Assembly (NCBI RefSeq): GCF_003850565.1
Contig: NZ_CP027706.1
Coordinates: forward strand, 5,642,001 to 5,706,000
Reading direction: 5' to 3'
Origin: Pseudomonas sessilinigenes
Lineage (GTDB): Bacteria > Pseudomonadota > Gammaproteobacteria > Pseudomonadales > Pseudomonadaceae
Length of the DNA stretch: 64,000 bases
Shown piece after piece: positions 1 to 57,141 of the stretch. The notes under the pieces are model-generated. The model worked only from the letters and a program-made list of their open reading frames with translations, ran no database searches and had not been told where the DNA came from. The first letter of the stretch is position 1; each line of letters begins with the position of its first letter. The translations under genes and the position numbers were made by a program.

Positions 1-442
1 GCAACTCGGCCGCACTGGGGTAGTCCGCCGGTACCTGGCTGACCGACTGCAAATAGTCGCGAAAGACGATCTGCTCGGTGGCTGCGCGCGTCTGCTGCTC
101 CACGTCCGGACGTTGGCGCCAGCCTTGGGCATCGGCCTGCTCGAGTACCGCCTTCTCCGCCAGGCGCGAGCGAATCCAGGCCTCCAGGGCCGGGCGATTG
201 GCTCGCAGTTGCTGGCCGGACGCCTCGGGCAGGCTGGCGAACAGGGCCTTGAGCTCCGTTGCCGCGACCTGCTGGGAGCCCAGGCGCGCCACCGCCGGGC
301 CACTGGCCTGGGACTGTTGCAGCAGCGCCGATGCCGGCTGCTGTGCCGCCACCGGGTCGCTGCCCGGCCGCAAGGCCAGCCCCAGCGCCAGGCCGAGCAA
401 GGTCAGTGCCCCGGCACCGACCACCAGGGTCGGCTTCTTCAC
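1..442 (-). CDS. Peptidyl-prolyl cis-trans isomerase (SurA/PpiC-like), C-terminus beyond window
   Basis: Partial gene with 147 codons visible, continuing past base 1. It opens with GTG at 442-440, overlapping the TGA of the YbjN-like gene (GTGA), so the two are translationally coupled. The N-terminus is a single hydrophobic anchor or signal (VKKPTLVVGAGALTLLGLAL), followed by a SurA_N-like helical segment with ARLGSQQVAATELKALF and LEAWIRSRLAEKAVLEQA. The parvulin catalytic domain would lie outside the window and is not seen. Position matches PA0699 of the P. aeruginosa pdt cluster. Inferred role: periplasmic folding helper for the secreted or outer-membrane proteins of this operon. Confidence 0.75.
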   Translation of the reverse strand, partial: MKKPTLVVGAGALTLLGLALGLALRPGSDPVAAQQPASALLQQSQASGPAVARLGSQQVAATELKALFASLPEASGQQLRANRPALEAWIRSRLAEKAVLEQADAQGWRQRPDVEQQTRAATEQIVFRDYLQSVSQVPADYPSAAEL

Positions 443-933
443 AGGGCCGCTACCTCTTCAGCACTGGCAGGTTGCGGCGCATCGCCCTGTTCGGCCTGGG
501 CCTGCAGGCGAGCGGCCTGCTGGCTGTACTCGCGCAGGTAGACGATGAACTCCTGGAGCAGGCGATCCCACAGCTCCAGCTGGCTGCGCAGGTGAGTGTC
601 ACTGACCCCGGCCACCACCACATCCATCTCCATCACCAGGAATTCACCCTGCAGCGACAACCGGGCGAAGCGCCGCGAAGCATTCCACAACTCGGCCAGC
701 CCGGCCGGCAGCTCGCCCTGGACCCGCAGGGCGCAGCTGTAGGTGAAGTCCACATAGTGTCCCGACTCCCCCGCCGGATTGCCGAAACGCACGGCATAGC
801 CGATGCCCTGGCTGGCACTGAGCAACTGCACGATGCCGTTCTGCTCGGTCTGGTTGACCCTGTAGCCGGCGCCTTGCAAAAGCTCGGTCAGGCTGTCGGT
901 GGTTACGCTGGTAATCAAGGTTGCTTGAGTCAT
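439..933 (-). CDS. YbjN domain-containing protein
   Basis: A 164-residue protein of the YbjN fold (related to type III secretion chaperones), with no signal peptide or membrane segment. The segment ESGHYVDFTYSCALRV and the helical tail after FLVMEMDVV are typical of the family. The frame is open up to a TTG at 957, but an AAGGAAG Shine-Dalgarno at 942-948 lies 8 nt before ATG 933, so that start is preferred; ATG 939 is possible. It is cytoplasmic by sequence, although its neighbours are envelope proteins, so it may act as a chaperone or regulator. Function is unproven. Corresponds by position to PA0698. Confidence 0.8.
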   Translation of the reverse strand: MTQATLITSVTTDSLTELLQGAGYRVNQTEQNGIVQLLSASQGIGYAVRFGNPAGESGHYVDFTYSCALRVQGELPAGLAELWNASRRFARLSLQGEFLVMEMDVVVAGVSDTHLRSQLELWDRLLQEFIVYLREYSQQAARLQAQAEQGDAPQPASAEEVAAL

Positions 934-953
934 GTTCATATCTTCCTTGGTAA

Positions 954-1601
954 TCAATGAGCGCTCGCCGCCCGGGGAGCGTCGAACTGAGTCTGGTACA
1001 GGTCATCACCGAAGCCCTGGGCCAATTCCTCGAACTTGACCCTAGCACTGCCAGCGAAAGGCTGACGGATCTTCACCACCTCGGCCACGTCGATCTTCTC
1101 GTAGGCGGTGAGGATTTCCTTGGCGATGCCATACATTTGCTGATTCTTGACCGCACATTGCTGCACTTGTGTGTCACGTTCGTTCAATTGCGCCTGGAGC
1201 TTGGCGCGCTCCGCTTCCTTGCCGCGGGCCAGCACCAGCAGTTCGTCGTAGGCTTTCTTGAATTTTCCCAGCTGCTCGCTGTTGGCCACAGCCTGGGCCT
1301 GGGCCTGGCTCTGCAGGTTCTGCTGCTGGCCCGCCAGTTGCTCGGCCACGCCGCGGACCTTGGCCAGTTCGGCGCTCAGTTGCTTGACCTGGGCCTGGGC
1401 CTCCTTGGCCGCATTCTCGGCGGCCAGCCGCGCGGCGGCCGCCTGCGCCTGCTCGCTCTGCAAGGCCTGCAGTTGCTGGGTGGTGCTGCGCAACTGGGTA
1501 CGCAAGCGCTCCTCCATGCCCTCGGCCGTGGCGCTCGCGCTGGCCAACACGCCACAGGCCAGCAACAGGCCCAGGGCCCCTGCCCTTGTCCGGCTGTTCA
1601 T
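954..1601 (-). CDS. Periplasmic coiled-coil protein of the pdt cluster
   Basis: A 215-residue protein with a signal peptide (hydrophobic LGLLLACGVLASASATAEG) followed by about 110 residues of Gln/Ala/Glu-rich heptad sequence, almost certainly a long coiled coil (roughly residues 28-135). A C-terminal globular part carries one Cys (QVQQCAVKNQ) and the segment IRQPFAGSARVKFEELAQ. The Cys in the signal is LLLACGV, which does not fit a clean lipobox. GGGAGG abuts ATG 1607 and sits 6 nt before ATG 1601, so 1601 is chosen. It lies between the porin and YbjN genes with 17-20 nt gaps. No enzyme motif is visible. Perhaps a periplasmic spacer or scaffold, like PA0697. Confidence 0.75.
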   Translation of the reverse strand: MNSRTRAGALGLLLACGVLASASATAEGMEERLRTQLRSTTQQLQALQSEQAQAAAARLAAENAAKEAQAQVKQLSAELAKVRGVAEQLAGQQQNLQSQAQAQAVANSEQLGKFKKAYDELLVLARGKEAERAKLQAQLNERDTQVQQCAVKNQQMYGIAKEILTAYEKIDVAEVVKIRQPFAGSARVKFEELAQGFGDDLYQTQFDAPRAASAH

Positions 1602-1618
1602 AACCATCCTCCCTGCGC

Positions 1619-3325
1619 TTAGAAGCGCGTGTTGAGTTCTAGCTGCATGACGTCGACTTCATAACGCGGCCCATAGACTTGCGATGCGCTCATGTAGCGG
1701 GCCGTGGCGTAGATGTTCTTGTCGATGCCGTAGTTGCCGCCCAGGAAGTAGCCCTTGGCGTTGGTGCCCCCCAGGTGGAACGAAGAGTCGTTGAAACCGT
1801 CGGGCAAGGCATCGGGCTGGATGTACTTGTAGCCAGCCAGCAGGTTCCAGTCGCCGGCCTTCTTCATTTCCAGGGCGTTGCCCAGGGTGAACTGCAGCAT
1901 CAGCGCATTGGCGCCGCTCTCGAACTCGCCATTGCGATTGATGTTGTTGACGATCTGGCCTTCGCTGCGCTTGAGCATTTCGGCCTTGTCGTAGGCCAGG
2001 TTGTGGATGTAGTTGCCCTGGGTGCGCAGGTGCAGGTCATCCGGCAGCTCGGTGTCCCAGGCCAGGTTCAGGTCCAGCACGTCGAACTTCGAGGCCAGGC
2101 CCACGTATTGCGGCTGCGGGGTCAGGCCAGGAGTGGCCGGGTTGGGCGCGATATTGCGCAACAGGAATACGCTGTTGCCCTTCTGCATGAAGGCCACGCG
2201 CGAGCCGTCGGTATCGCAGCCCGGGGCGCCGGCCCATGGTTTGCAGGGGCTGGAGCGCTGGCCTTCGATATCGTCGAAGCGGTAGTAGGCCAGTGCGCCC
2301 TTGAGGCTGTTGTTGCGGTTGATCTTCCAGTTGGCGCCGATCTGCCCGCCGAACAGCCACTTGGTGTCGCTTTCGTTCTTGTCGAAACCGTTGCTGGTGG
2401 CGGTGTCGTTGGTGTATTCCACCGGGAAGGCACCGACCGTGCCGAACAGCCCCCAGTCGCTGTTGAGCTTGTGGTTGAAGATCGCCGCCACACCGTCGAA
2501 GTTCAGGTCGTTGGAATACAGCATGTCGGTGGAATAGAACGGATTGGCGATCCGCCCGCCGGTCAGGGTCAGGTCCTGGGTGGCCTTCCAGGTCAGGTAG
2601 CCCTGGTCGAGCCAAATGTCCTTCTTGCCAAAGCCGCCGCCCAGGGTCTGGGTGGTGGACACCGGATTGTTGTCCGACCCCGTGCCAATACGGATGCCGG
2701 CGGTCCATTCCGGCGAGATCACCGCCTTCATCCCCAGGCGGGCCCGCAGGCGGAACAGGTTGTCACGATCTTCACGGGTGTTGAGCAGCGGCGGCAGCTT
2801 GCTGTTGGTGTCCTTGTTGACGTCGTAGGGGCCGCTGTCGTTGAGCTTGGCGTAGTCGACGATCTCGTTGCTGTTGTTGTCGGCGAAGAACCGCGACTCA
2901 CTGCGCAGGCGAATGTCGCCATCGAAGGTGATGCGCGAGACCCAATCCGGGAACGTATTGGGCTGGGCCCAGTTCTCCTGCTTGGCGGTGGCCATGACCT
3001 CGGCCTTGACCTGGTCGCGGATCTGGTCGCGGACAATCGCCGGTACGTACTGCACCCGCACGTCTCCCGGTGCTGCCGCAGGTCCGCTGGCGGCCACCGC
3101 AGCCACTGTAGCGTTGGCCTGGCGGGCTTGCTGGGCCTCCTTTTCGGCCTGGGCAATCAGCCCGTCGGCCTGCTCCTGCTTCAGCACTCCCTGCTGCACC
3201 AACAGACGGATCAGGTTGATCGTGGCGTTCTCCGAGGGCGCGGTCGCGGCGGCCGTGGCCTGTCCGGCCAGGGTCAGGGCAACCATGCCGAGCGCCAGGG
3301 TCAATCGATTCATGGTGGAAATCAT
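1619..3325 (-). CDS. Putative outer-membrane porin (Porin_5 type)
   Basis: A 568-residue outer-membrane beta-barrel. It has a signal peptide (TLALGMVALTLAGQATAAA) and a short helical or coiled segment (LIRLLVQQGVLKQEQADGLI) typical of putative porins, followed from about residue 130 by alternating barrel strands. It ends in the assembly signature MQLELNTRF with terminal Phe. Two Cys (SSPCKPWAGAPGCDTDG) suggest a disulfide-bonded loop. The start is ATG 3325, with AGGAG 10 nt upstream; GTG 3331 is an alternative. The substrate is unknown. Its place beside tonB/exbBD in a low-phosphate cluster makes phosphate-ester or polyphosphate uptake a guess only. Confidence 0.85.
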   Translation of the reverse strand: MISTMNRLTLALGMVALTLAGQATAAATAPSENATINLIRLLVQQGVLKQEQADGLIAQAEKEAQQARQANATVAAVAASGPAAAPGDVRVQYVPAIVRDQIRDQVKAEVMATAKQENWAQPNTFPDWVSRITFDGDIRLRSESRFFADNNSNEIVDYAKLNDSGPYDVNKDTNSKLPPLLNTREDRDNLFRLRARLGMKAVISPEWTAGIRIGTGSDNNPVSTTQTLGGGFGKKDIWLDQGYLTWKATQDLTLTGGRIANPFYSTDMLYSNDLNFDGVAAIFNHKLNSDWGLFGTVGAFPVEYTNDTATSNGFDKNESDTKWLFGGQIGANWKINRNNSLKGALAYYRFDDIEGQRSSPCKPWAGAPGCDTDGSRVAFMQKGNSVFLLRNIAPNPATPGLTPQPQYVGLASKFDVLDLNLAWDTELPDDLHLRTQGNYIHNLAYDKAEMLKRSEGQIVNNINRNGEFESGANALMLQFTLGNALEMKKAGDWNLLAGYKYIQPDALPDGFNDSSFHLGGTNAKGYFLGGNYGIDKNIYATARYMSASQVYGPRYEVDVMQLELNTRF

Positions 3326-3364
3326 CTGCACACAACTCCTGTAGAAACTGCAAAAGAGGTTCGA

Positions 3365-4081
3365 TCAATCCGGGCGCCGGCCCTTGAGGGACAGGCGCAC
3401 AGGCAAGGTCAGGGAAGCCGGCATGCGTTCCTTCAAGCGCGGCGTGGCTCGCAGTGCCGCCAGTACCTGTTCGTCGGTCTGGGCATCGCCACTGGAATGG
3501 GCCAGCACGACCCGGGTGACCTGGCCGTCAGCGCCCAGCCACAGGTCCACCTGCAGCGCATAGGCCTTCTTGCGCAGCTCAGGGTCCTCGCGCAGCACTC
3601 GCTGGAAAGTCGCCGCCAGGTATTGCTTGTAGGTTCCGGTGCCCAGGCCGCCGCCACCGGAGCCGGCCATGCCGCCACCCTTGCCGGCGCCGATGTTGAA
3701 CGCATCGTTGCCAGCCTGGGCATCACCGTCGATCTGCATCGGGTTGGCCAGGTCGTCCGCCGGCGATGGCGGCGCCTCTTCCTCCGGCTTGACCTCCTCG
3801 GGGGTCGGCGTGGGTTCGGGCTCCGGCACCTTTTCTTCCACCGGGTCTGGCTCCTTGGGCTTTTCCGGCGGCGGTGGAGGTGGCGGCGGTGGTGGCGGCA
3901 ACGGGATGATGGTCGGCACCTTCGGCGCTTCCCGGCGCACCCCGGCCATGTCGTTGGCCCACTGCCACAGCAGCCAGGCGGCAGCGCCAGCCAGCAGCAG
4001 CCCGACACCCCACTTGAGCACGCGCACGACTCTCGGCTTGCGCTGAACGGGCGGTAGCTGGATCGGTTGTTGTGCGGTCAT
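3365..4081 (-). CDS. TonB family energy transducer
   Basis: A 238-residue TonB-type protein. The N-terminal anchor (VLKWGVGLLLAGAAAWLLWQ, residues 22-41) precedes a periplasmic Pro-rich spacer with eleven consecutive prolines and Glu/Pro/Lys repeats (about 58-105). A Gly-rich hinge and a C-terminal TonB_C/TolA-like domain follow (about 150-238, with LQVDLWLGADGQVTRVVL and SSGDAQTDEQVLAAL). The GSGGGGLGTGTYKQYL hinge resembles AgmX/GltJ-type TonB homologues more than the classical iron TonB. Only 3 nt separate it from exbD. It should couple ExbB/ExbD proton-motive energy to an outer-membrane partner. The adjacent porin and PdtB are candidates, since this operon has no TonB-dependent receptor. 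Confidence 0.9.
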   Translation of the reverse strand: MTAQQPIQLPPVQRKPRVVRVLKWGVGLLLAGAAAWLLWQWANDMAGVRREAPKVPTIIPLPPPPPPPPPPPEKPKEPDPVEEKVPEPEPTPTPEEVKPEEEAPPSPADDLANPMQIDGDAQAGNDAFNIGAGKGGGMAGSGGGGLGTGTYKQYLAATFQRVLREDPELRKKAYALQVDLWLGADGQVTRVVLAHSSGDAQTDEQVLAALRATPRLKERMPASLTLPVRLSLKGRRPD

Positions 4082-4084
4082 GAC

Positions 4085-4507
4085 TCAGCCCTGGGGTTTG
4101 CCGGTGACCAGGCCGACCTGGGACAACTCCAGGCGGCGCAGCAGGTCGAGGACTTCGATGACCTTCTGGTACTGCACCGTGGCGTCGCCGCGGACGATGA
4201 TCGGAAAGTCGGGGTTCTGCGCCTTCTCGATGCGCAGGCGCTCTTCCAGCTCACCCAGGGTCACCGGGTAGGCGTCGAGGAACACCTGGCCGCCATCGTT
4301 CACCGAAATGGCCTTGGTCTTGGCCTCCGACAGGGACACCGAGGCGCTGGCCTTGGGCAGATGGATCTGGATGCCCGAGACCTGGGCGGTGGCGGTGAGG
4401 ATGAACATCACCAGCACCACCATCAGCACGTCCACCAGGGGCGTGATATTGATGCTGTCGACGGCGGCATCGTCTTCGTCGTCATGGGAGGCGTTCACGG
4501 AAGCCAT
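4085..4507 (-). CDS. exbD: ExbD/TolR biopolymer transport protein
   Basis: A 140-residue ExbD of typical length. After an acidic N-terminus (DDEDDAAVDS) comes the single transmembrane segment, with the proton-carrying Asp26 in ITPLVDVLMVVLVMFIL. The periplasmic domain ends with FPIIVRGDATVQYQKVIEVL, typical of the family. Together with the upstream ExbB-like and downstream TonB-like proteins it forms a complete inner-membrane energising complex within one operon (gaps of 11 and 3 nt). Position matches exbD2 (PA0694) of P. aeruginosa. Confidence 0.95.
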   Translation of the reverse strand: MASVNASHDDEDDAAVDSINITPLVDVLMVVLVMFILTATAQVSGIQIHLPKASASVSLSEAKTKAISVNDGGQVFLDAYPVTLGELEERLRIEKAQNPDFPIIVRGDATVQYQKVIEVLDLLRRLELSQVGLVTGKPQG

Positions 4508-4518
4508 GGCAGTTCTCC

Positions 4519-6336
4519 TCAGGCCGGGACCGATGCGTTGCTGTGGCTGACGCGCCAGTGGGCGTTCTCGTGCTGCTGGCTCTCGCCATGCAGTTCCGCC
4601 AGGCGAGTGATGAACTCATCGACGAACACCCGCATGTCGGCCCCCACTTCCTTGTTGCGGGTGATCAGGCGGTTGTAGCCGAACAACGCCGGGATCGCGA
4701 CGAACAGGCCCATGGCGGTGGCCAGCAAGGCCGCAGCCATGCCCGGGGCGATGGCATTGATGTTGACGTCGCCGGCCATGGCGGTACCGAGGAACACCAC
4801 CATGATCCCCAGCACCGTGCCCAACAGGCCGATGTAGGGGCCGCCGGCGATGGCGTTGGAGAGGGTCGAGAGCTTGGCGCTCAGTTGCTGGTTCTCGCGG
4901 GTGCGCACCCCGTCCATGGAGCAGCGGATGGCCTCGATAGTGGCCGCCGACACCGACGAGGTATCGGCGCCCTGCTCGCGGCGGGTACGGATCTCCTTGA
5001 CCGCCACCAGGTACAAGCGCCACAGCGAGGATTGCTCCAGGCGCTCGGCCAGGGCCTGGTCATCGGCGAACATTTCCAGGCGCGTGCCGACCCTGGCGAA
5101 CTGCTCGCGAAACAAGGCATTAGCGGCACTGACACGGCTGACCATGCGGTTCTTGCGCAGCATGATGACCCAGGACTGGATCATCATCGCCACCAGCACC
5201 AGGATGATCACCCAGGCATCCATCGGTACCGCCTTGAGCAGGAAGCCCAGGCTGCCGAAACCGAAACCGGACTGTTCTTCATCGACGCCGTAGGCCACCA
5301 GCTTCGACTCGGCCCCCTGGGAACTTGCATCCGCAAGAATCAGCGCTGCAGGTCGTACCACCTTGGACAGCCGCAACTCGTCCAGCGCCCCGGTGAATGG
5401 CAGGAAATGACTGGCCTCGGCGCCAGGGGCCGGCGGCAGGTCGGCACCGATGGCCAATACCGAGTTGAAGCTGGCGATGGCCTGGGCCAGGCTCGCGGTC
5501 TCGCGGCCATTGACGTACAGGGCGAGCTTGCTGCCCTCCCCGCTCAAGGCCAGGTGTTGCCATTGCCCCGGATTCAACGGTTGGGTGGACACCGCGCGCT
5601 GGCCATCCACTTCCACGAACGGCACGCCCTGGTTGACCCCGATCAGCAGGCTGGCGGCACCTTCGCGACGGGCCAGCAACAGCTGCTCGCCACTGGCCTG
5701 GTCCAGGCGTACCCAGGCGCTGAAGGTGAACGCCCCACCGGCGTTGTGCTGCAGCGACGGGCTGGCCGGCAACAGCAGCGGCTGGCCGCTGAACTGCAAG
5801 GCACGGCCGATGACGCCCTCGATGGCCGCGCCAGTGGCGTTCTGCGCGGTGTTGCCGTAGGCGGTGGTGTCCTTGGCGGGCGTGCCATTGCTGCCATCGA
5901 AATGGTAGATGGCGGTGTAGCTGGGATCGAAAGTCAGCTGGCCGTTGGCAGTACCCGGGGCCTTCTGGTTGCCGTAGTACATCCAGATATCCTGGCGCTG
6001 GCCACCTTCGACCCGGGGCACATCGACCCAGATCAGCGCCATGCCCATCAATGGGTCGAAGCTCTCGATCTGATGGTTGAACACGGTCTTGTCATCGGCG
6101 GCGACAAACCGCAGGTCGGACCCGTCTTCCTTGACCCCGTCGAACGTGAAGTTGCCGGTGTGCAAGCGCACCAGCAAGGCGGTGCGGCCCAAGGCCTCGT
6201 TGATGCCGGCGCCCTGGGGCGTGGTGTCCACGGTGATCTGCTTGCGGTAGTGCCAGTCGTCCTGCCACCAGGCATGGGCCGTGGCCGGGAGCACGAAGCC
6301 CAGGCAGATCAACAGGCTCAGGAATAAGCGTTGCAT
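4519..6336 (-). CDS. exbB: DUF2341 / LamG-like / MotA-TolQ-ExbB fusion protein
   Basis: A 605-residue chimera. A signal peptide (LFLSLLICLGFVLPATAHAW) is followed by a DUF2341 domain with the WYYxNQ-like motif IWMYYGNQKAPG (about residues 25-130). A concanavalin/LamG-like jelly-roll follows (about 160-325: YHFDGSNGTPAKDTT, FTFSAWVRLDQASGEQLLLARR, HLALSGEGSKLALYVNGRE). A first membrane span lies at about 365-385, then the MotA/TolQ/ExbB core with GPYIGLLGTVLGIMVVFLG and a last span. The start is ATG 6336 with GGAG 10 nt upstream. Ordinary ExbB is about 240 residues, so over half of this protein is an added periplasmic, glycan-binding-like module. It may sense or bind a polysaccharide or the passenger protein. 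Position matches exbB2 (PA0693). Confidence 0.9.
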   Translation of the reverse strand: MQRLFLSLLICLGFVLPATAHAWWQDDWHYRKQITVDTTPQGAGINEALGRTALLVRLHTGNFTFDGVKEDGSDLRFVAADDKTVFNHQIESFDPLMGMALIWVDVPRVEGGQRQDIWMYYGNQKAPGTANGQLTFDPSYTAIYHFDGSNGTPAKDTTAYGNTAQNATGAAIEGVIGRALQFSGQPLLLPASPSLQHNAGGAFTFSAWVRLDQASGEQLLLARREGAASLLIGVNQGVPFVEVDGQRAVSTQPLNPGQWQHLALSGEGSKLALYVNGRETASLAQAIASFNSVLAIGADLPPAPGAEASHFLPFTGALDELRLSKVVRPAALILADASSQGAESKLVAYGVDEEQSGFGFGSLGFLLKAVPMDAWVIILVLVAMMIQSWVIMLRKNRMVSRVSAANALFREQFARVGTRLEMFADDQALAERLEQSSLWRLYLVAVKEIRTRREQGADTSSVSAATIEAIRCSMDGVRTRENQQLSAKLSTLSNAIAGGPYIGLLGTVLGIMVVFLGTAMAGDVNINAIAPGMAAALLATAMGLFVAIPALFGYNRLITRNKEVGADMRVFVDEFITRLAELHGESQQHENAHWRVSHSNASVPA

Positions 6337-6358
6337 GGAAGGGGTTCTCCGTAAAAAG

Positions 6359-8071
6359 TCAGAACGTCGCCTGCACACTGAAGTGCACGCGCGGGTCGTG
6401 TTTCTGGGTGTTGGGCCCGTCTTTGAGCGGGTAGCCCCAGTCCAGGCTGCCGGACAGCCACTTGCTCAGGCTGGCGCGAGTGCCCAGGCCGACGCTGGCC
6501 AGGCTGTATTCGTCGTCCTGTTCCGGCAGGGGCTCATGCAGGCTCAGGCGGGCACCTTCGGCGAAGGCGTAGAAGCGCCATTCCTGCACGTAGCTGCCGA
6601 GGAACTTGGCCAGGGACGGCGTGCGCAGCTCCTGGGAAAACAGATAGCCCTCGTCTCCTGTGCGTTCAGCGGCCAGGTAACCGCGTACCGACGTGGCACC
6701 GCCGGCGGAATACTGCTCGTTGGACACCAGCGGCCCCGAGGCCAGCTGGAAGGCGCTCTTGGATGCCGACTGCCAATCGTTGTCGAAGGTGTAGGTAAAG
6801 TTCAGGTCGCCCTTGAGCACCGAGAAACTGGCACTGGCTTCATCGCGTTTGAACTGGAATTCGTGGGCCTCGCTGCCATAGCCGAAAGAGCGCCGGGTAC
6901 CGATCACCAGGTTCAACCCCAGGCCCAGCTGGGACTTTTCGCTGTAGCGGTAACCGTTGTAGCCGAAGGTCAGCGGAGCGTACTTGAGCGGGATCTCATC
7001 GCGGCTGTTGCCCAGGCGCACTTCTTCCTTGAAGTCCTTGAAGTCCACCCCCAGCGAAAACGAGTTGGCCCAGTTGCCCGAGGCCGGCAGGGTGTAGATC
7101 GCCGACAATCCATAGGAGTGGCCCTTGCCCAGCACATTGCTGCCGCCGATGGTGGCGATGTTGCTGTCGGACTGGTAGCCGGAGAACTGCAGGCTCCAGC
7201 GATCCGTCAACGGCGCGGTGTAGGAACCGGACCAGACCTTGGCGTTCTCGGTGTCCTGGGGGGCGGTGAAAAAGGTCAGGGACACGCTGTGGCCCAGTTG
7301 CCACAGGTTGTCGTAGCCGACGCTGGCCACCGAGCGCAGCTTTTCGGTGTCGGCGCTGTAGTCGTTGTTCAGGCCGAGGCTGGCGCGCCAGGGATTCTGG
7401 TCCTCCACTTGCAGGTCCACATCCATGGTTCCCGGGCGCTGGCCCTCGCGCACCAACGGCATGACCTGGCGCCCCGTTCCCCGATTGAGGCCGGCCAGCT
7501 GGCTCTGCACCGTGGCGAAGTCCGGGACCTGGCCTTCCTTGAGCGCCGGCACCTGGTCGCGGATCTCCACCGGTGAATAGTGCTTGGCGCCCACGACCCG
7601 CACACGACCGACCTTGGTCTCGCTGACCTGCAGGTAGACGATGCCGTCCTCGACCTTCTGCTCCGGTAGTTCGACGTATACCGACTGGTAGCCCCGGGCC
7701 TGATAGACCTTCTGCAAGGCATCGCGAGCGCCTTCGATATCGCTCAAGGCCTTTTGCGGGCCCAGGTACGGGTACACCGCCTCCTCGATCGCCCGGGCAT
7801 CGAGCACCGTATTGCCGCGTACGAAGTACTCGTTGACGTCCACCAGCTTGGCTGGTGCCGTCTCGGCCACGGCGGCCTGCCCGGCCTCCTCGGCCTGCAC
7901 CACCGGCGCCAGCGCCAATAGCGTCAACCAACCGCACAACGGCCACCAGCGCCCGCCACTGCCCGGTCGTCCTGATTTGCCCAGATGCTCCACACCGCCC
8001 CCTAGAAGTCTGAAAATTGGCGCGCGCACGCGCATTGCCGTCGCCGTTTGCACAGCGTTTGGCCGATTCAA
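6359..8071 (-). CDS. pdtB: Two-partner secretion outer-membrane transporter (ShlB/FhaC family)
   Basis: A 570-residue TpsB. After an Arg-rich N-extension and a hydrophobic export signal (about residues 42-60, CGWLTLLALAPVVQA) come two POTRA domains. POTRA 1 is about 78-152 (VNEYFVRGNTVLDARAIEEA), POTRA 2 about 155-225 (VGRVRVVGAKHYSPVEIRDQ). A 16-strand barrel follows, with the family loop motif SVRGYLAAE, ending in HFSVQATF. It should export a filamentous-haemagglutinin-like TpsA across the outer membrane. The matching TpsA (PdtA) is 33 kb away in this window. TTG 8071 overlaps the phdA stop (TTGA); ATG 8035 (MRVRAPIFR) is the alternative start and leaves the signal intact. Confidence 0.93.
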   Translation of the reverse strand: MNRPNAVQTATAMRVRAPIFRLLGGGVEHLGKSGRPGSGGRWWPLCGWLTLLALAPVVQAEEAGQAAVAETAPAKLVDVNEYFVRGNTVLDARAIEEAVYPYLGPQKALSDIEGARDALQKVYQARGYQSVYVELPEQKVEDGIVYLQVSETKVGRVRVVGAKHYSPVEIRDQVPALKEGQVPDFATVQSQLAGLNRGTGRQVMPLVREGQRPGTMDVDLQVEDQNPWRASLGLNNDYSADTEKLRSVASVGYDNLWQLGHSVSLTFFTAPQDTENAKVWSGSYTAPLTDRWSLQFSGYQSDSNIATIGGSNVLGKGHSYGLSAIYTLPASGNWANSFSLGVDFKDFKEEVRLGNSRDEIPLKYAPLTFGYNGYRYSEKSQLGLGLNLVIGTRRSFGYGSEAHEFQFKRDEASASFSVLKGDLNFTYTFDNDWQSASKSAFQLASGPLVSNEQYSAGGATSVRGYLAAERTGDEGYLFSQELRTPSLAKFLGSYVQEWRFYAFAEGARLSLHEPLPEQDDEYSLASVGLGTRASLSKWLSGSLDWGYPLKDGPNTQKHDPRVHFSVQATF

Positions 8072-8679
8072 TTGCTGGTGATCGTGGTGTTGTCGTGGCG
8101 TGCCAGCCAGGTATGCAGCAGCGCGAAGTTCAGCGAAAACTCCGGCATCTGCAGCAGGGCGCCGCAGAACACTTCACCGATGATCTTGTGGATCAGTTGC
8201 ACGGCCTGCGGGTTGTTCAGCAGCGTGGCGATGTCGCGGCTCAAGACACTGAAGCTCCAGACCTTCTGGTTCAGGCCCAGGCCGACGAACCAGCGGAACA
8301 GCAGGTTGTAGTTGAGCTGTTCGTAAAGCTGCTGTTCGCTTTGGACCGAGTACAAAAGCTGCAACAACAGGATGTGCATCACCGTACGCGGCGCGATGAA
8401 CATACCGGCCTCGGCATGGAGGCTCAGGAACAGGTCGCCCTGCTGATCAAGCAACTCCTCGATCTGCGGGCGCAGCAACACCAGCGAATGCCCCGGCGGG
8501 ATGTAGCTGGACACCTCCTTCAAGGCCCCCTGCCAATCATCCTGGGACACGATCCAGACCCACGGAGCGCCATAGCGATAGACCGAGACCGGCTTCTTGC
8601 GAGCCGCTTCGACAATCTTCGACAGCCGTTGGTCCAGCTCCTGCATGCCCACTTTCGAGTAGCGTTCCATAGTCCCCAT
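8068..8679 (-). CDS. phdA: PhdA-like protein: Phd antitoxin-like N-terminus plus IS5-transposase-like (DUF772) domain
   Basis: A 203-residue protein and first gene of the pdtB operon. Residues 1-55 (MERYSKVGMQELDQRLSKIV, then RYGAPWVWIVSQDDW) resemble a Phd/YefM antitoxin N-terminus. The rest resembles the N-terminal DUF772 (InsH-type) domain of IS5-family transposases: LLLQLLYSVQSEQQLYEQLN, then NYNLLFRWFVGLGLNQKVW, then SFSVLSRD. No DDE catalytic domain follows and no toxin gene adjoins. ATG 8679 has GGGAG 7 nt upstream; ATG 8670 is possible. In P. aeruginosa, PA0691 (PhdA) lies between pdtA and pdtB and has been linked to BfmR and phage-mediated lysis in biofilms. Whether this protein binds DNA or a toxin is not shown. 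Confidence 0.8.
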   Translation of the reverse strand: MGTMERYSKVGMQELDQRLSKIVEAARKKPVSVYRYGAPWVWIVSQDDWQGALKEVSSYIPPGHSLVLLRPQIEELLDQQGDLFLSLHAEAGMFIAPRTVMHILLLQLLYSVQSEQQLYEQLNYNLLFRWFVGLGLNQKVWSFSVLSRDIATLLNNPQAVQLIHKIIGEVFCGALLQMPEFSLNFALLHTWLARHDNTTITSN

Positions 8680-8782
8680 AGCCTCACTCCCGGCATCCCG
8701 CCTCGGCTTAAAAAAGTGGCCTTGCGGCCCCCTCAAGCGCGTTACATACCCAAGACCCAAGTGGCTATGCGCTACCGAACTT

Positions 8783-8800
8783 TTGTCATAAAAGCTTCAT
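8783..8800. promoter_or_regulatory. Pho-box-like 18-mer upstream of phdA-pdtB
   Basis: TTGTCATAAAAGCTTCAT on the plus strand matches the PhoB layout CTGTCAT-N4-CTGTCAT at 10 of 14 half-site positions, with an AT-rich 4-nt spacer. It ends about 104 nt before the phdA start, in reversed orientation relative to the gene. The same arrangement occurs before pdtA. Regulatory function is inferred. Confidence 0.4.
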
Positions 8801-41510: not shown

Positions 41511-44500
41511 CTATAGCGTCAGTTGCTTGCGCTCCTCTTCGGTCAGGCGGGCTCGCGCCTGGTCGTTGAGCGGCCCGGCGCCCAGCACCTGCACCGGGCT
41601 GTCCGGGTTGTAGGCCGGGGCATGGCTGGCTTCCTCCCGCGCACGCTCCACCTGCTCGGAGCCAAAACCCAGCACCTCCACGGTCACGATGGACGCCCGG
41701 CCCTGCCTCGCGGCTGTCTGCTGGTTGCGCACCGCATCTTGCGCAGCCTGGGAAGCCGCCGAGCCTGCTGCACTGGCCGAGGTCATGGCACTGGTGTTGA
41801 CCGTCGCGGTCACCGGGATCCCCGAGGATTTGCCCTGGGTCTGGATATTCGCGGCGTTGACCACTTGCAAGGCTGCGACGTTGACGCTACCCGAAACCCG
41901 GATCCCCGCTTCGCCGGCATCGACCGTACCCAAAGGAGCGATCAGGTCGATATCCCCCGACGGCACTTCGGGAATCGGTGCCAGGGTCGCGATCCCCGCG
42001 CCCGTACTGGGCACCGATGGCGCCAGGCTGACGTTGCCCCAGTTGTCGTAGACCCGCTTGGGCGGGGTGTAGACCACGGTGGTCTTGGAACCCCGGCCGG
42101 CGTTGATGTCGCCCTCGGCCGACCAGCCCATGATGGCCCCGCCGAAGGTGGTCATGATCCGGCTCTGCCCCAGCAGGATGCTGCCCAGGGAGTACAGCTG
42201 GATGTCCCCGGCGCCTTGGGTGATGATCCCCGCCGAAGCCGGTGGCGCGTCGCCTTCGATACCAAAGGTCTGGCTGCCGCCCGGCGTCAGCATCTGGATC
42301 TTGCCACCAAAGTTGGTATGTACCCCGGAACCACCGAACAGGGTGATATCGCCCTTGTAGGTGATCGGGTTGCCGGCCACGTCGGTCTGCGGGAACAACG
42401 CGGCAATGGCCGCCCGGCCCCGGGCGTAGCTGCCCTGGCGTACCCCACCCTCTTGGTTGTACTCGCGGCCAGCGGCCTTGAGCTCGGCAAAATACACATC
42501 CCGGGCGAACACCCGCTGCTGTTCCGCCGGCAAGGCCGCGTAGTAGGCCCGGGCCTCGGCAGCACTGCCAACGAAACCGAAGCGTTCGGCCAGCCAGGCC
42601 AGCAACTCGCTCTCGTAGGTCTTGGCCACTCGTTTGCCAACCAGGGATTCGCCGCTACCGGCCAGGTTGGCCGGGTCGAGGTAGGCCTCGACGAAGCGTC
42701 GATAATCCGGCCCGCTGGTCCCAACCCCGGCCTGCATCACGATGCTCGCCCCCGGGCGGCTGTCACCCGGCGCCACGGCGCCGAGGCTGGTGACGCTGAC
42801 CTTGTCCTCCATCAGGATGTTGCGCCCCGCCGTCAGCTCCAGGGTACCGGGGCCGGCGACGTTGAAGTTGCTGTAGAGGACGTCGCGCCCGGCACTGACG
42901 ATGGAGATATCGTTGGGGTTGTCGTGGATGAACAGGTTGCCAGTGAAGGTGTAATAGCCAAGCTCATTACCTCCTACTCGAGCACCGTCCAGGGAGGTTC
43001 CACTGCTGACGATATCGCGCCCGGCCATCATCCATACCGGACCGCCACCCTCATAACGAGTCTGGCCAAAACGCCGATCGCTATCGGTGAACACCAGGCT
43101 ACGACCACTGCCGACCGCCAGCAGGTCGCCCTTGAGCGCATAAAAACGCGCCGGGCCGCTATTGCGTTGCCAGCCCCCCGTGGCCGAAGGAGAACCGAAA
43201 GTGAACAGTGGATAGCTGTCGCCGGCAAGGTTCGCATCCGCGGACAGGTTGCCCATCCCGGGGATCAGCACTCCGTTCCCATTCCTCGCCTCATAGGCCG
43301 GGTTGAAAGGTGTCGCCAGGGTGGTGGGCGCGGCGAAAGACTGGTTGATGGACAGGTTCCCGCCATAGATCGAATCTCCAGCCAACAACTGCAGCTGGCT
43401 GTTGTTCGAAGGCGCTAGCACCAGGGTCGAGCGGTTGTTGTTCACCGTACCGACCCCTTTCGCGCTGCCGTAGTACAGGCTGCCGCTGGCGGCCGTTACC
43501 CGCAGGATCGACGGATAAACGACGGCGAGGTCGGATTCCACCGCCGTCATCATCGGCGTGGCATTGCCGCCTGCGGAATACAGGTCGATGGCGGTGCGGT
43601 CGGTCCATAGGGAGAACCAGGTTTTCCCGGAACCCTGGATACCCTCCAGGGCATAACCGTTCATCAACGAGGTGCGTCCCGGATCGATCACGCTTTGCAG
43701 TACCAGGTCACCGCGGGTCGACAGATTGAAAGTGGCATCGCCCGGCACCAGGGTGATCCCCCCTGCCGCCAGGGCCGTAGTGGCCCGTACAGGATCGAAG
43801 GCCCGGGTTTCTCCCGCGCTGCGGTCTTCCGGACGGCTGCCATAGTGCAGGTCCAGGCTGCCCACCGAAGCCCCGAGCACCTGGGCATTGCCGCGCAGAT
43901 TCAGCAGTACGCCGTCAGTCTGGCTTTGCTTGGTGAGGCTGCTGCCTGGGTTCAGGCCGCCACCCACCTCAAAGCGCAGGTCTCCGCCACCGGTCAATTG
44001 CAGTCCGCCATCGGCGGTGACCCTGCCGGTGCTGCCGACCGCCAGCACCAGCCCCTGGGTACGTGGGTTGGCCGATCGTTCCAGCACGCTGCCGGCCAGC
44101 GGTTTCAGCACGCCGGCATCGCCGGCCACCCGCACATCGAGGTTGCCGCCGCCCAGGGTGCCGAAACCGGTAAAGCCCACCAACTGGTCGGCGGTGGCGG
44201 TGGCGGTGTAGCTGCCGAAGTTGATCCACCAGGCCGTCGGCAAGGACTGCCCTCCCCCCTGGCGCCACAACCAGTTGCCGACCTGGGTCGAGTCATGGCC
44301 GCTGTCCTGGGGATTGGGCCGGGCCTGGGACTCCGCGGCGGTATCCACGATATTGCCGGTCAGGTTGCCGCCGACCCGCAGGCTCAGGTTGCCACCCCCA
44401 TCGGGATACCAGGCGCGGTACAGGCTTTCGCTACCGCCATCGACGAACTTCTCGAAGTAGCTGTTCACGTCGTTGAGCACCGTGGTGCCCCGCCCTGGAG

Positions 44501-47500
44501 CCTTGGCCTGGTTGTAAGGAGAACCTGGCGCAGTGGCCAGTGACGAAGTACCCGCGGTGTAAACCCCATACAGCGAGTCCATGCTCAGGTTGCCGGCACT
44601 GAGCAGTTCCAGATCGCCAGTCCCGGTGCGGATCACGCTGAAGCGGGTACTGCCCGGCATCGGGGCATACTCCTTGTTGCTCAAGGAGATGCAATAGGCC
44701 GGGGACGCAGCACAAAAGTCACTGATGCTGCCCAGGCCCAGGTCGTCGAGGACCTTCTGGTCGATCGGGTCGCCCTCCTTGACCACGACGCCCAGGTCCG
44801 CCAGGTCGTGTACGACCAGGGCGCTCCAGCCGTAGTTGACCCTGATTGCGCAGTAGACAGGGCTGGCACCGCAGAAGTCGTCGATCGAACCCATGCCCAG
44901 ATCGTCGAGGAGCTTCTGGTCCACTGGATCGCCAAGCTTGACATCGATCCCCATGGCCGCGAGGTCGTTGACCGCGTCCTGGGTCCAGGTCTGTACGCCC
45001 TTGGCCGGTACCTCCTTGGCGAACATGCCGTAGTGACTGTCGGCCAGATGCAGGTCGCCCTGGCTCGGATTGGCTTGCAGGATGCGGCTGTCGGCCGCCT
45101 CGGTATCCCCCCCGGCCACCAGGCGCAGGGACCAGGACTGCGAGCCCTCGGCGAGCATCGGCGCAATGGCCCAGAGCTTGCCCTGGCGCCCCACCTCCTC
45201 CGTACGCAAGGCGATGGAGCTGACGCCGTCCGGCAGCTTGACGTTGGTGCCGGAAGGAATCAGCGCGCCTTTGGCCAACGGCTGGCTGCCATCGAGCAAC
45301 ACCTGGCCGCCAACGGCCGTTGGCAGGCCCACGCCCTTGGGCCAGGTCATGGCCTTGACCCGGGTGTTCTGGGCCAGCAGGCTGCCGGCCTCGAGCTGGG
45401 TCCCGGCGTCCAGGGTCTGGGCTTCGCCGAGCAGGGTCCCGGCGGCGAACAGCAAGTTGCCGGCGGCATCACGGATGGCCGCTGCCAGCACGGTGCCGGC
45501 CGGCAGGACCAGGCTCTGGTCGAGGATCGCGGTCACCGGCAAGCGGGTACCTGCCGCCAGGGTCAGGCCCTTGATCGGCAGGTCATAGTTGAGGGTCGCG
45601 CCGGTGGGGAAGCTGGTGCCATCGGCCAGGGTCACCCCGGTGCCCGGCACGATGATGTTGCCACCGGTGAAGTCCACGCCTGGCAACAGCACCCAGCCCT
45701 TGTCGTCCACGGTCTGCGGTGGCGGGGCGAAGCCGTCGTTGATGCTGCCGTAGATACTCAGCTCGCCACCGGCGCGCAACACCAGGGCTCCGACCTCGCC
45801 TGAGCCATACACCGAAGTCTTCTGGCTGTGGGGGTTGACGCTGGCATAGCGGTAGCCGGACAGGTCCAGGTCGCCCTGCACCACCAGGTCGCCGTCAGGG
45901 GTCTTGCTGACGATCTGGACCCCGGGGCGCAGGTGGAAGGCGTCGGCATAACCTGCGTTGTTCAGCCCGGCCAGCTTGTTCTGCATCAGGTCGCTGTTCT
46001 GCAGGGCCGCGTTGATAAAGGCGCTGCTCAGCTGGTGCTTCTGGTCCAGGTAATCCTGGGTGATTTCCTGATAGGGACGGCCGCTGGCGGCATCGTTCTT
46101 CTGCGGCGCATCGTCATAGCTGACCATGCCGTTGACCGCGATCGAGCGCGCACCCTGGATATCCAGGCGGCCTCGGGCATCGATGGCAATATCGTCGCTG
46201 CTGCCGTCGGGCTTGAATATCCGTGGGGCATTGAGCTCCAGGGTGCCACGGCTGCGGCCGTCGTTTTGTCCCGCAGCGCCACCGACCGCCACCTCCGTGC
46301 CATGGCGCAGGTCGATGCGCGCGCCCTCGGCCAGGGTCAACTGGCCCTTGCCAGACCCCAGCACCACCGTGGCGCGGTTGGGCGCATCGATGATCTTGCC
46401 GTAGCTGTCCACCCGCAGCTTGCTGCCATGGGCGTCGAGCACCGCGCCGGAGTCCAGGGCCAGGCCCTTGCCGGCCGCCAGGTTGATGCTGCCGACCCGC
46501 TCGCCACTGGCGTCCACCAGGCCATTGACCCGCAGGCTGCCGTTATCCAGGGAGACGTTGATGCTGTTGGCCTTCAGGCCATTGCCGATGGTCAGGTCGC
46601 CCTGCTTGAGCTGGAAGCTGCGCGCGCCATACACCTGGCCCTGGTTCAGGCGCTGGTTGAGGGCAGCGAACTGCTCGTCCAGGGTACCGCTGCCACCCAG
46701 GCGCTGGGCCTGGATTTCCACCGCGCCGCCCAGGTACGGCACCCGGGTACCGCCGGCATCGTAAGAGCCGCTGCTGGCGCCAAGGATCTTGCCCGCCAGG
46801 TCCACCAGGCCGGCACCATTGTCCAGGGCCACTGCGCGCAATTTGCCGGCCTGGTTGTTCTGCGCCGACAGGTCGATGCTCGAGCCCGCCGCCTGCAATA
46901 CATTGCCAGTACGGCTCTGCAGCAGCACCTCACCGCCGGCTCCGTACTTGGTCAGATCGTTGAAGGCGATGGCACGCCCGGCCACATCGATCAGCCCAGT
47001 GTCGGTGAGCTGCACATCGCCACGGGCATCCAGGGTCACCTTGCCGCTGGGCAGGACCACGGCGCTGGCCAGGCGGATGCTGTCACCGCTCAAGGACAAC
47101 TCGGCGCCCTGGCCATTGGCCTGGCCACGAGGGCCGGCCGTGGCCCCGATATCGATGGCGCCACCGGCCGTGATGCGATTCACCGAACCGGCTTCGCCGG
47201 TCATCAACGGCGTGCGGATAGTCAGGTTGCCACCGCTGTAGGTAAAACCCTTGAGCGGATCGTAGGCACCCTGGCTCTGGTACACCGCGAGGCTGCCCTT
47301 GTGGTTGGCAGTGATGCGCTGGCTGGCGTTGAGGTTGACGTTGGCGAACCCCAGGGCCAGGCGATCGAAAGTCTTGGTGGTGCTCGGCTGGGCGAAGGCA
47401 CCGTAGCCGAACTCGATGCGCTCGGCGTTGATATCCAGGAGCCCACTGCCCGTCCCGGCGCCGCCGGCCACCACCGCCCCGGCCGGATTCACAGCCCCCT

Positions 47501-50500
47501 GCCAGATCAGGTTGGCGGTGTGGATAGTGGCCACGTCATTGGCACCACCGGCGCCGTAGATGGCCGGAGTCGAGAGCATGAGGTTGCTCAGCAACGATTT
47601 GCCGGTCACCGGATCGTAGGTATCCAGGCCCGCACTGCCGTAGAAGTTGAAGCTGTCCCGGGCCGAGAGTTGCAGGGTCTCCAGGGCCGGGGCGCCGAAC
47701 TGGGTATCGCCGCGCAACAGGCGATCCAGCACTTGCTGGGTCAGGGTCATGCCGGCCGGCAGGCGATTACCCGCGGCTGCCGCAGCCAGGGCTTCGGGGC
47801 TGCCCACATTGATGCTGCTCAAGCCCAGATTCAGGTGCCGGGTGCCATAGCGTACCTGGTCGCCCAGCTCGAAGGTCTTGTCGGTCAGGGCAACGATGCT
47901 GCCCTCGGAGTACAGCGCGGTTTGTCCGGCGCAAAGGCTGGTGTTGCAGCTACCCACCCGGATACCGCCACTGGACTGCTGGGTCGCAGGCGCACTCACC
48001 ACATTGAGCAAGCCATTGGACACCGCCAGCATGTTGCCCACCTGGTAAACGAAGCCATCCCGCGCGTCATAGCTGGCCTTGCCACGGCCGATGGTGTTGA
48101 TCGAGGCGCCCTGCTCCACCAGGATCTTGCCGGTGTTGGCCACCAGGAACACCTCCGGCGCCGCCAGGGCCGCGCCCTGGCGCAGGATGATCGAGCCATT
48201 GCTGGTGCTGGTGCCCTCGGCCAGGGTGATGAGGTTACCGCTCTGGCCGTACTTGACCAGGGTCAGGCCGCCGAGCATCAGGCGGGCAGCACCCAGGGCA
48301 TTGAGGCTGTCGGCATCCAGGGTGATCCCGGTAAACCCGTCAGTGGCCGACTGCCCGGCCTTCACCACTTCGATGCCGTCACCATCGCTCCTGCTCAATA
48401 CCGAAACAGTACCGCCAAAGCCTCCCGCTGCGGCCTCGAAACGGCCAGTACCCTGGAAGGAAAACGCCTCGGTTCCGGCACCGGTTTCCAGCGCCAGCTT
48501 CAGGGTCTTGGCATCTACCGGCAATAGCGGCCGTGGCACGCCGAGCCTGGCCGCGTCGGCCATGGCGAACTGCGCGTAGCTGGTCTCGTTGTACTGCGAA
48601 TAACGACGCAAGGTATCGGCCGAGGTCAGGATCAACTGGCTGGCGATACTGTTGCCGATCCCGGTGTTGGCGATGGACAAGCGCCCGGCGGTGGCCCAGG
48701 AACCATTGCGCATCTGCTGGGCCGAGCCCTCGCTGCCAAGTCCCGCCAGGCCGTTAATCTCCACACGGAAGGCCCCCGGCATCAGGGCGTAGGTGGACGG
48801 CATCAGGGTATAGGTACCCGCCGCCAGCCCCGGAACCCCGGCACCAATGGTCACCTGCTGGCCGATCATCGGGTCCACCGCGCCGCCTTCCGGTGCCACC
48901 GGCGCGTAGCCGGGTTGGGTGCCGGGGACAATGGCGTAGATCGGGTTGCTGGCCAGGCCCGGCAGGACCAGGCCGCCGTTGGTGCCGATCTGCACCAGCG
49001 GGTTGTAGCGAGCATCGGTGGAGCCGCCACGGCCGGAGATGAAGCCAGCGCCCAGCAACTCGCCACCGCCGGACAGGTCCAGGGTCGCCCCTTGCTGCAC
49101 CTTCACCGACTTGCCGCCCAGGATCACGCCGACACTCAGCTCGCTGTTTTCATTGACCATCCCGCCCTGGCCCACGAAGTTCACGGTCTTGCCGTTGTAC
49201 TTGTAGAGCTGGCCATCGACGGTACCGCCATAAGGCAGCACCAGGCCCTTGCCGCTGACCGAGGTCAGGCTGCCCGGTAGCAATTGGACTTTGCTGCTGC
49301 CCAGGTTGCCGATCTCGATCAGGCCCAGGGGCGCGCGCAGCACGCCGCCCTGCTTGATGGTCGCGGCGCCCAGTTGCAGGCGGCCGAAGGCCGAGTACGG
49401 CACGGCCAGGTCAGCGTTGCCATTACGCGCAATGGTCAAGGTCCGTACCGGGTCGAAATCGATACTGGCACCCGAAGGCTCGCCTCGATAACCGGCGATC
49501 ACCCGAGCCCCGACCTCGGTGCCCGGGTACAACTGCGCGGCGCGCAGGGTCATATCGCCCTGGGTCAACAGCTGGGTGCTGATGCCCTTGGCGATCACAT
49601 CGGCGCCGACACCGGCGAGGAAGCGCAGATCGCCCTGGCTGTCGAGCTGGACGTGATCGAAGCCACGGCGCTCGATGTTCACCAGGCTGCTGTCGGCTAG
49701 GCGCAAGTCGCCCTTGCTGCCAAACATCACGTTGCCACGCACATCGATCTGGTTGCCGCTGGCGTTAAACAGTGCCTGGCTAGAGCGTTGCGATGGTTTG
49801 CCGACGGCCACCACCGGGCGGACATACAGGTCCTTGGCCTCCAGGGGCGCGAGAATGCCCGCCAGCAACAGGTAAGGCGCCGACAGCTTGACCCGAGTCT
49901 TGGCCGCGGCATCTTCCGCCAAGCTCAGGGCGCCGCTGTACAGGCGCAGGCTCTGGGCCAGGTTCAGCGACACATCGCCATCGAAGCTCAACAGGCCGTT
50001 GCTCAGCAAGGCCAGGTTGTCGAAGCCGCCGGCCGCCACCTGATCCGCACCGAGGCGGCCATGGCCATACTCCAGAGCGCTGGCCGCAGACTCTGGCGAT
50101 CCGGGCAGGACGTTGGCCTGGTGAGTCTGGCTGAGTACCAATTCGCGGGCCTTGAGCACCCGGTCGGTCACCGCGTTCTTGGTGTAGTAAGGACTCTCCA
50201 GGGCCACGGACAAACTACCGCCTGCTGCGCCAGTACCACCCGCTCGGGCGACGAAGCTGCCGTCCAGGTAAAGGCCATTGTTGGAAGCAAAACTGATGCT
50301 GCCGCCCTGGCTGGCCACCTGCACCCGGCCTTGACCGGGAATGTCCAGGGCCGCCTGGGTACCCGATGCATCCAGCCGTGCGCCATCGCGCACCACCACG
50401 AACAGGTCACTGGCCTTGGCGATGCCCGTGGCCAGGTTGATCTCGCCGCCGATGGAAATCTTGCCGCCATTGCGCACCTGGCCGTAACTGCGCCCCTGGC

Positions 50501-54044: not shown

Positions 54045-54153
54045 TACTACTCATCCTTTGTTATGACGCCCAGGGGTGCGCGACGCTGTACGGCCCAGGG
54101 CGCGCGTCACTGCTCTAGGGGATAGGCCGTTGTCGGGGGATGCGACCGAACTG

Positions 54154-54171
54154 ATGTCATGGAAAATTCAT
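54154..54171. promoter_or_regulatory. Pho-box-like 18-mer upstream of pdtA
   Basis: ATGTCATGGAAAATTCAT on the plus strand, ending about 110 nt before the pdtA start. Its reverse complement and that of the phdA box share ATGAA-N6-ATGACA. It keeps the PhoB half-site spacing, though reversed relative to the gene. Function is inferred. Confidence 0.4.
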
Positions 54172-56756: not shown

Positions 56757-56888
56757 GAAGAATCTCCTTTCGTCGTGTTCGTACGTTGGGTGAATAGCTC
56801 TTGCATGACGCCATGGCACTCGGGCCAGAAGCCTTGATCCAGAGGGCTTGATGGGTGAGGCCATGGGGAGAGAAGTTCGCAGCTTCCG

Positions 56889-56906
56889 GTGACAGTTAAA
56901 GGAAAA
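56889..56906 (-). promoter_or_regulatory. Pho-box-like site upstream of DING copy 2
   Basis: On the minus strand, TTTTCCTTTAACTGTCAC has one near-perfect PhoB half-site (CTGTCAC) and a weak one (TTTTCCT), separated by TTAA. It is correctly oriented, about 133-150 nt before the DING copy 2 start. Further CTGTCAC/T half-sites lie at 56984-56990 and 57059-57065 in the same 380-nt interval. Confidence 0.4.
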
Positions 56907-56954
56907 ATGCTCGGGAGAAGCCGGCTGTTTTTGCAAAAGATTCTCGGGTGTTCA

Positions 56955-57120: not shown

Positions 57121-57141
57121 AAAAAAGCTGGCGCCGTCAGC
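57121..57141 (-). terminator. Possible terminator at the end of hxcS
   Basis: On the minus strand AGCTGACGGCGCCAGCTTTTTT contains a short AGCTG/CAGCT stem with T run, overlapping the hxcS stop codon. It would end the hxc operon before the DING genes. Confidence 0.5.

Follow-up and report, generated by a model that had tools for sequence, protein, structure and literature searches.

PhdA of Pseudomonas sessilinigenes joins a Phd-like domain to a transposase N-terminal domain and may regulate phosphate-starvation secretion genes

A 64,000-nucleotide stretch of the Pseudomonas sessilinigenes chromosome (NZ_CP027706.1, positions 5,642,001 to 5,706,000; hereafter the window) carries a gene, phdA, whose relatives bear conflicting names. 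Gene order and promoter pattern mark phdA as the presumed orthologue of P. aeruginosa PhdA/PA0691. That protein is called a putative transposase in the relevant passage of PMC2729926 and a Phd homologue in those of PMC7035377 and PMC7047154, and among the 120 database matches listed of 530 homologues at E ≤ 1e-5 many orthologues are labelled 'transposase'. What kind of protein is this, and what is it doing in front of a set of secretion genes? The homology evidence below shows the predicted product to be a chimera of a Phd-like domain (residues ~1–54) and the N-terminal domain of an IS5/IS1182-type transposase (~55–193), which explains the conflicting 'antitoxin' and 'transposase' labels, neither of which fits in the ordinary sense; in the accessible text of the open-access literature on phdA we found no description of such a fusion. 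We give roughly 55% to the reading that PhdA is a domesticated, toxinless Phd-type local feedback regulator of phosphate-starvation secretion genes, and not an antitoxin or a transposase.

The phdA open reading frame (ORF) lies on the minus strand, with its ATG at 8679 and its stop at 8068–8070, and encodes 203 amino acids (aa) that include both motifs quoted in an initial annotation of the window, LLYSVQSEQQLYEQLN and NYNLLFRWFVGLGL. That annotation had described 8068..8679 as a Phd/YefM antitoxin fused, near residue 55, to a DUF772 domain. The coordinates are right, the two domains are there and DUF772 is clear (PF05598, residues 95–154, E 2e-14, 53.7 bits against a Pfam cut-off of 23.1). 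The transposase-derived part exceeds DUF772 and begins at about residue 55. Of the NCBIfam models, IS5 matches residues 95–156 and IS1182 residues 53–154, both far under their full-length cut-offs; since the IS1182 match begins at model position 9, the transposase part starts immediately after the Phd part. Residues 55–193 align with the N-domain of an IS5-like transposase (L091, 359 aa) collinearly, with one gap and at 35% identity (BLASTP, E 2e-26), the transposase's first ~15 residues being replaced in PhdA by the Phd part. As the DDE matches of this transposase start at residue 201, the C-terminal part of PhdA corresponds to ~140 residues of a transposase N-domain with the catalytic part missing. 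A DDE domain stands behind the N-domain in 4/4 relatives scanned, and none is found in the phdA product, for which a Pfam scan returns only the DUF772 and PhdYefM families up to E 10, as the initial annotation had anticipated. Profile–profile comparison (hhalign) of the C part with 13 transposase N-domains, from 15 loci tried, gives a probability of 99 (E 2.8e-20). PhdA further differs from IS5/IS1182 transposases in being encoded once (a single genome-wide match in its own genome) and in a fixed chromosomal operon. The only other DUF772 match of this genome (L111, C1:5360991–5361161) resembles the broken remnant of an IS5-type transposase.

Because the single-sequence match of the Phd half is sub-threshold, this half was examined by profile–profile comparison, in which residues 1–58 of 74 relatives were aligned to 28 Phd/YefM antitoxins (PF02604), 27 of them from 30 loci chosen by likeness to three seed antitoxins and one from the genome itself. 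The likeness, which lies in the N-terminal ~50 residues, scored a probability of 93 (E 2.3e-7), against 0.3 with the antitoxins reversed; the Stenotrophomonas sequences alone, introduced below, also reached 93, and crossed controls gave 1.0 for the N part with transposases and 0.1 for the C part with antitoxins. In single-sequence scans at E 0.01, PhdYefM was detected in 32 of the 74 relatives and DUF772 in 43. Of the two families on which the initial annotation had staked the fusion, PF05598 is thus found outright, and Phd, below threshold by itself, is supported by the profile comparison. Twelve positions are invariant across the 74 aligned relatives (L15, L19, S20, P30, V33, R35, Y36, G37, W40, W49, H64 and L69), among them R35, which stands at the place of the arginine in the YefM 'TRQNG' turn that we take to be a DNA contact.

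The Phd half is also the constrained half of PhdA. Against 90 orthologues more than 75% identical, the ratio of nonsynonymous to synonymous substitution rates (dN/dS) is 0.006 for residues 1–55, 0.348 for 56–94, 0.102 for 95–156 and 0.164 for 157–203, with similar synonymous divergence across the four segments, and against 10 sequences of a more distant Pseudomonas clade the same segments give 0.062, 0.461, 0.345 and 0.536. At 45 of the first 55 positions, one residue is shared by at least 99% of 101 sequences, all of them related and some from genomes present twice through two collections. As a yardstick we took the most conserved 55-aa stretch of each of eight operon genes, compared with the protein of the window over up to 80 loci: differing cells amount to 0.05% in the ExbB core, 0.55% in the PhdA N-terminus, 1.7% in ExbD and at least 6% in the others. 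The wording of the initial annotation points to the transposase-derived half as the one under constraint, but constraint sits in the Phd half (0.006 versus 0.10–0.35 in the near and 0.062 versus 0.35–0.54 in the distant comparison). A half so nearly frozen suggests a fixed partner, most simply an operator.

Gene order and promoter point to the genes that such a regulator might serve. As previously annotated, phdA heads a secretion operon and has no toxin partner, the next gene downstream being that of the TpsB transporter. In a set of 101 loci with PhdA at ≥50% identity, tpsB adjoins phdA in 91, and the other ten (L001, L082–L090) are stretches of 3.2–3.6 kb, too short for a complete tpsB ORF. 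Upstream of phdA, a 30-base block is found at 22–25 of 25 informative positions in 92/93 distinct upstreams, against a best of 17 in 1860 mononucleotide shuffles, a control generous to the pattern, which was derived from the same upstreams; GTC stands exactly 44 bases from the block start in 92/92 upstreams holding the block. The block found before the TpsA gene of the window also precedes that gene in 8/8 other Pseudomonas clusters whose stretch was read (19–22 of 25). According to PMC4971064, the pdtA promoter of P. aeruginosa depends on a pho box whose repeats span −56 to −50 and −45 to −40, on a −35 region around −34 to −29 and on a −10 at −11 to −5. When the block start is set at −56, the half-sites, GTTCGGT and GTC fall on or next to these mapped elements. 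As a sequence pattern, the phdA promoter fits the PhoB/sigma-VreI geometry of P. aeruginosa, where the promoter of PA0691 has the same layout, with the proviso that we ourselves assigned the elements and placed the pho box on the opposite strand. Excerpts of two further papers describe phdA as PhoB-dependent (PMC12186492) and its promoter as bound by AlgR (PMC6610081). The leader between promoter and gene (8710–8729, minus strand) contains GGCC-GCAA-GGCC followed by a T run, which is terminator-like and was not seen in the more distant Pseudomonas sequences compared.

The distribution of phdA is tied to the vreR/exbB cluster. Among 199 Pseudomonas genomes drawn evenly, with phdA and the VreR-type FecR gene called at E <1e-80, 60 carry phdA; 62 carry the DUF2341-ExbB gene, these same 62 have the VreR-type gene, and all 60 are among them; the set of relatives includes Pseudomonas sequences at 66–71% identity. 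In 55 of the 60 phdA genomes VreR has type II secretion genes next to it; in G017 and G067 such genes stand farther off, either between VreR and phdA or adjoining pdtA–phdA; the stretches read of three more (G095, G048, G112) hold no type II secretion gene, that of G048 ending with its contig. In the two clusters without phdA (G107, G172), a full-scoring promoter block stands directly before tpsB, and vreIR adjoins pdtA with no type II secretion genes between (L209, L210, L211; these genomes were not searched for such genes elsewhere). The joint absence of phdA and the intervening type II genes is likely one event, the sequences being similar, and weighs little alone. Single copy, fixed operon position, purifying selection and linkage to vreR/exbB all agree with the domestication proposed by the initial annotation, and distribution, promoter pattern and operon position together tie PhdA to the phosphate-starvation secretion regulon. 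The gene order of P. aeruginosa is alike, hxc – lapA – pdtA – phdA – pdtB – exbB2 – exbD2 – tonB4 – porin (in the relevant parts of PMC2729926 and PMC7035377). Its vreAIR-hxc-lapA-pdtA-phdA-pdtB series is matched here, but ~33 kb of other genes separate pdtA from phdA in this strain (8761–41510: a methyltransferase, which is the upstream neighbour of phdA within the window, a VgrG-like protein at 10312–11475, and others). In some relatives (L074, L081, L115, L272) pdtA ends ~0.2–7 kb upstream of phdA.

Beyond Pseudomonas, a class-wide search of 369 genomes found a two-domain relative in a single genome (G472); searching 149 genomes of its family turned up 4 with relatives of this kind, all of one genus, which we take to be Stenotrophomonas since a named protein there is 96% identical. 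When 398 Pseudomonadota genomes were searched with a family profile, the only full-length matches came from Pseudomonas (2 genomes) and from this genus (3 genomes), the remaining matches covering the transposase half or a short Phd stretch; up to 8 candidates per genome were scored (21 in the search of the G472 family, 6 and 11 in two others), so that distant fusions may be missed. G472 and three more genomes carry two diverged tandem fusion paralogues, PhdA-like a and b, flanked on one side by GspG and on the other by a FecR-like gene with 36% identity to VreR. Their cluster further includes an extracytoplasmic function (ECF) sigma gene, type II secretion genes (GspE 72–73%), a PBP-like protein and a PdtA-like gene (54–55%, N part). 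By profile comparison the paralogues share the two-part architecture, and their cluster is similar, but they differ from the Pseudomonas protein in occurring as a tandem pair, in their place within the cluster and in their weaker DUF772 matches (19.5 and 14 bits, under the cut-off); they are named mostly 'hypothetical', at times 'transposase' or 'prevent-host-death'. Compared between the two genera, the N parts match at a probability of 99 and the C parts at 98; with both halves homologous, one ancestral fusion is the simplest account, and phdA has changed place yet stayed within the cluster. The notion that PhdA tracks type II secretion rather than the two-partner system was dropped, the wider Stenotrophomonas stretch holding a PdtA-like gene too.

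In the reading that we prefer, scarcity of phosphate would let PhoB and a VreI-like sigma factor switch on the phdA-tpsB-exbB-exbD-tonB operon, upon which PhdA would dimerise through its Phd half and bind operator DNA within the vre-hxc-lap-pdt cluster. The helical, transposase-derived half may serve as an oligomerisation or second contact domain, and the protein would exert local feedback control over the phosphate-starvation secretion genes (VreI/PUMA3 regulon). Recruitment as a regulator, which the initial annotation had suggested, is the best reading. The architecture, the selection, the linkage and the promoter pattern are what the data show, whereas dimerisation, DNA binding, the target genes and the role of the transposase half are what we infer from them. 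A broader proposal is more tentative, its chances in our estimate falling somewhat short of even: that toxinless transcription regulators built as 'Phd plus transposase N-domain' form a class of which PhdA is the founder. They would descend from one ancestral fusion in which a jumping-gene domain became the effector or oligomerisation half, would tune a phosphate-starvation secretion regulon, and would have persisted in the cluster of both gammaproteobacterial genera despite the gene's changed place.

Several observations weigh against a feedback regulator of this kind. The Phd half matches PF02604 at residues 10–52 with E 9.5e-4 and 19.3 bits, under the Pfam cut-off of 29.8, and NCBIfam phd_fam with 12.3 bits, under 20.8, and the profile comparison made with the Pseudomonas sequences alone, which are nearly identical to each other, reached a probability of only 43. 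Neither four Stenotrophomonas stretches nor the 16 kb past the window with the sigma and FecR genes yielded the promoter block (best 15–16 of 25 in both, which in the former is chance level). No candidate Phd operator survived: the upstream block is accounted for by the promoter, and the CTTTT-ATGAC-AAAAG inverted repeat within this block is largely kept even where phdA is absent. PhdA is not needed for the tps operon to persist, as G107 and G172 keep the promoter without it. The available text of PMC8041468, an atlas based on systematic evolution of ligands by exponential enrichment (SELEX), has PhdA only in its reference list. A structure model from 74 sequences has a mean predicted local distance difference test (pLDDT) score of 73 and is helical and near 90 over residues ~70–170; its Phd part is modelled poorly (pLDDT <50 at residues 1–12 and 25–38), and it found no significant fold match, including in a MarR/winged-helix comparison of residues 50–180. 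Taken as a whole, the model is neither for nor against a chimeric regulator.

A first alternative is a protein–protein adaptor of the cluster, acting for example on VreR/VreI or on the secretion side, that has lost DNA binding. A near-frozen surface is equally compatible with fixed DNA and a fixed protein partner, PhdA-like genes adjoin a FecR-like (vreR-type) gene in Stenotrophomonas, and the two phdA-lacking clusters have no type II secretion genes between vreR and pdtA. DNA binding and dimerisation are, however, the usual role of the Phd family, and the presumed DNA-contacting arginine, R35, is among the positions invariant in all 74 relatives. Of the alternatives we rate this one highest, and yet as unlikely.

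Less likely again is a true antitoxin acting in trans on a toxin encoded elsewhere, such as the ParE of a Pf prophage, and so limiting phage lysis. Petrova 2011, known through the papers that cite it, is said to be the primary functional work behind a phage and toxin–antitoxin role of PhdA in P. aeruginosa. In the passages seen of PMC7047154 and PMC7549136, BfmR is reported to limit Pf4 lysis through PhdA as a Phd homologue; the former suggests a PhdA–ParE link as possible, 'experimental evidence ... lacking', and the latter reports 13.3% identity to the Pf antitoxin, a value that speaks against this role. Toxins of the sort do exist in P. sessilinigenes, which elsewhere in its genome encodes a YefM-type antitoxin of 83 aa together with a ParE toxin of 93 aa, a conventional pair (L112:1474–1996). 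This ParE, used as a query, has no match in the 101 phdA loci (one toxin family, in loci whose upstream neighbours are not all annotated), and TpsB, not a toxin, lies behind phdA in 91/91 loci long enough to tell. A typical Phd/YefM antitoxin is a short protein with an adjacent toxin and a toxin-binding C-terminal tail; in the 203-residue PhdA that tail is replaced by ~140 transposase residues. Nor does action in trans predict a distribution that follows the VreR/ExbB cluster. The 'phage/TA-interfering' function (TA, toxin–antitoxin) that the initial annotation offered beside regulation thus has the P. aeruginosa reports in its favour and the domain structure and gene order against it.

PhdA might instead inhibit IS5/IS1182 transposition in a dominant-negative manner, by binding element ends or poisoning multimers, which we consider improbable. 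Its identity to a transposase over residues 55–193 would suit such a role, and the closest transposase relatives (E <1e-14) occur in four genomes (G012, G064, G060, G093), all among the 139 without phdA. Yet 4/139 versus 0/60 are too few to mean anything, several phdA genomes hold more distant IS1182-like copies (e.g. G139, G160), and the promoter and the tie to the VreR cluster would be left unexplained. The transposase relative of G093 has an internal stop. Finally, a degraded transposase remnant mislabelled as a gene, as the many 'transposase' labels of orthologues might suggest, is already contradicted by dN/dS below 1 in every part in both comparisons (0.006–0.54), by the conserved operon position and promoter, and by a single copy with hundreds of homologues.

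The chimeric architecture makes the toxin-neutralisation model doubtful, and gives a well-preserved instance of a host protein retaining a bacterial transposase N-domain, for which the phdA-lacking lineage offers a natural experiment. New here are the near-frozen Phd half, the 60-of-62 linkage to the cluster, the Stenotrophomonas fusions, the promoter kept without phdA and the fit of its geometry.

Features of the window are collected in Table 1.

Table 1. Position and strand of phdA, its parts, its promoter and the associated secretion genes (window coordinates).
Feature	Position	Strand	Basis
phdA, Phd / transposase-N-domain chimera, 203 aa	8068..8679	-	Pfam, NCBIfam, BLASTP, profile–profile comparison
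Phd/YefM-like N-terminal part, residues 1–54, near-frozen	8518..8679	-	PF02604 sub-threshold, hhalign, dN/dS
IS5/IS1182-type transposase N-domain homology, residues 55–193, including DUF772 core	8101..8517	-	BLASTP to L091, hhalign
DUF772 core, residues 95–154	8218..8397	-	PF05598 E 2e-14
Conserved promoter block: two half-sites 11 bp apart (pho-box-like, opposite strand) and GTTCGGT, -35-like	8770..8800	-	
GTC of -10-like element, 44 bases from block start	8754..8756	-	
Promoter block before TpsA gene; 23/31 positions identical to phdA block	54141..54171	-	
tpsB/pdtB-like outer-membrane transporter (ShlB, POTRA_2); longest frame overlaps phdA stop	6359..8071	-	domain scan
DUF2341-LamG-ExbB fusion (exbB2-like)	4519..6378	-	domain scan
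ExbD-like	4085..4507	-	named by sequence and gene order
TonB-like	3365..4081	-	named by sequence and gene order
Putative porin (Porin_5)	1619..3331	-	domain scan
Conserved operon gene without Pfam match	954..1607	-	
YbjN-domain protein, last gene of block followed	439..957	-	
TpsA exoprotein, 4177 aa (TPS, DUF3739), pdtA-like	41511..54044	-	
PBP_like_2 protein (DING/LapA-type; name by gene order)	54246..55421	-	
PBP_like_2 protein (DING/LapA-type; name by gene order)	55572..56936	-	
Type II secretion genes F, E, D, M, L (hxc-like)	57137..63958	-	

Past the end of the window, type II secretion genes K, G and C are followed by genes for a FecR-like protein, an ECF sigma factor and an STN protein. 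In the operon itself, ExbB is fused to DUF2341 and LamG (4519–6378), and no stretch of the operon is better conserved than the ExbB C-terminal core. Imperfect repeats flank phdA, for example 7894–7914 and 8908–8928 (21 nt, 81%, given without a chance comparison), one arm lying within the tpsB frame. The full phdA of one Pseudomonas fluorescens genome is preceded, ~0.6 kb upstream, by a partial second PhdA start (L063, 9063–9356), in which ~25 Phd-like residues give way to an unrelated frame.

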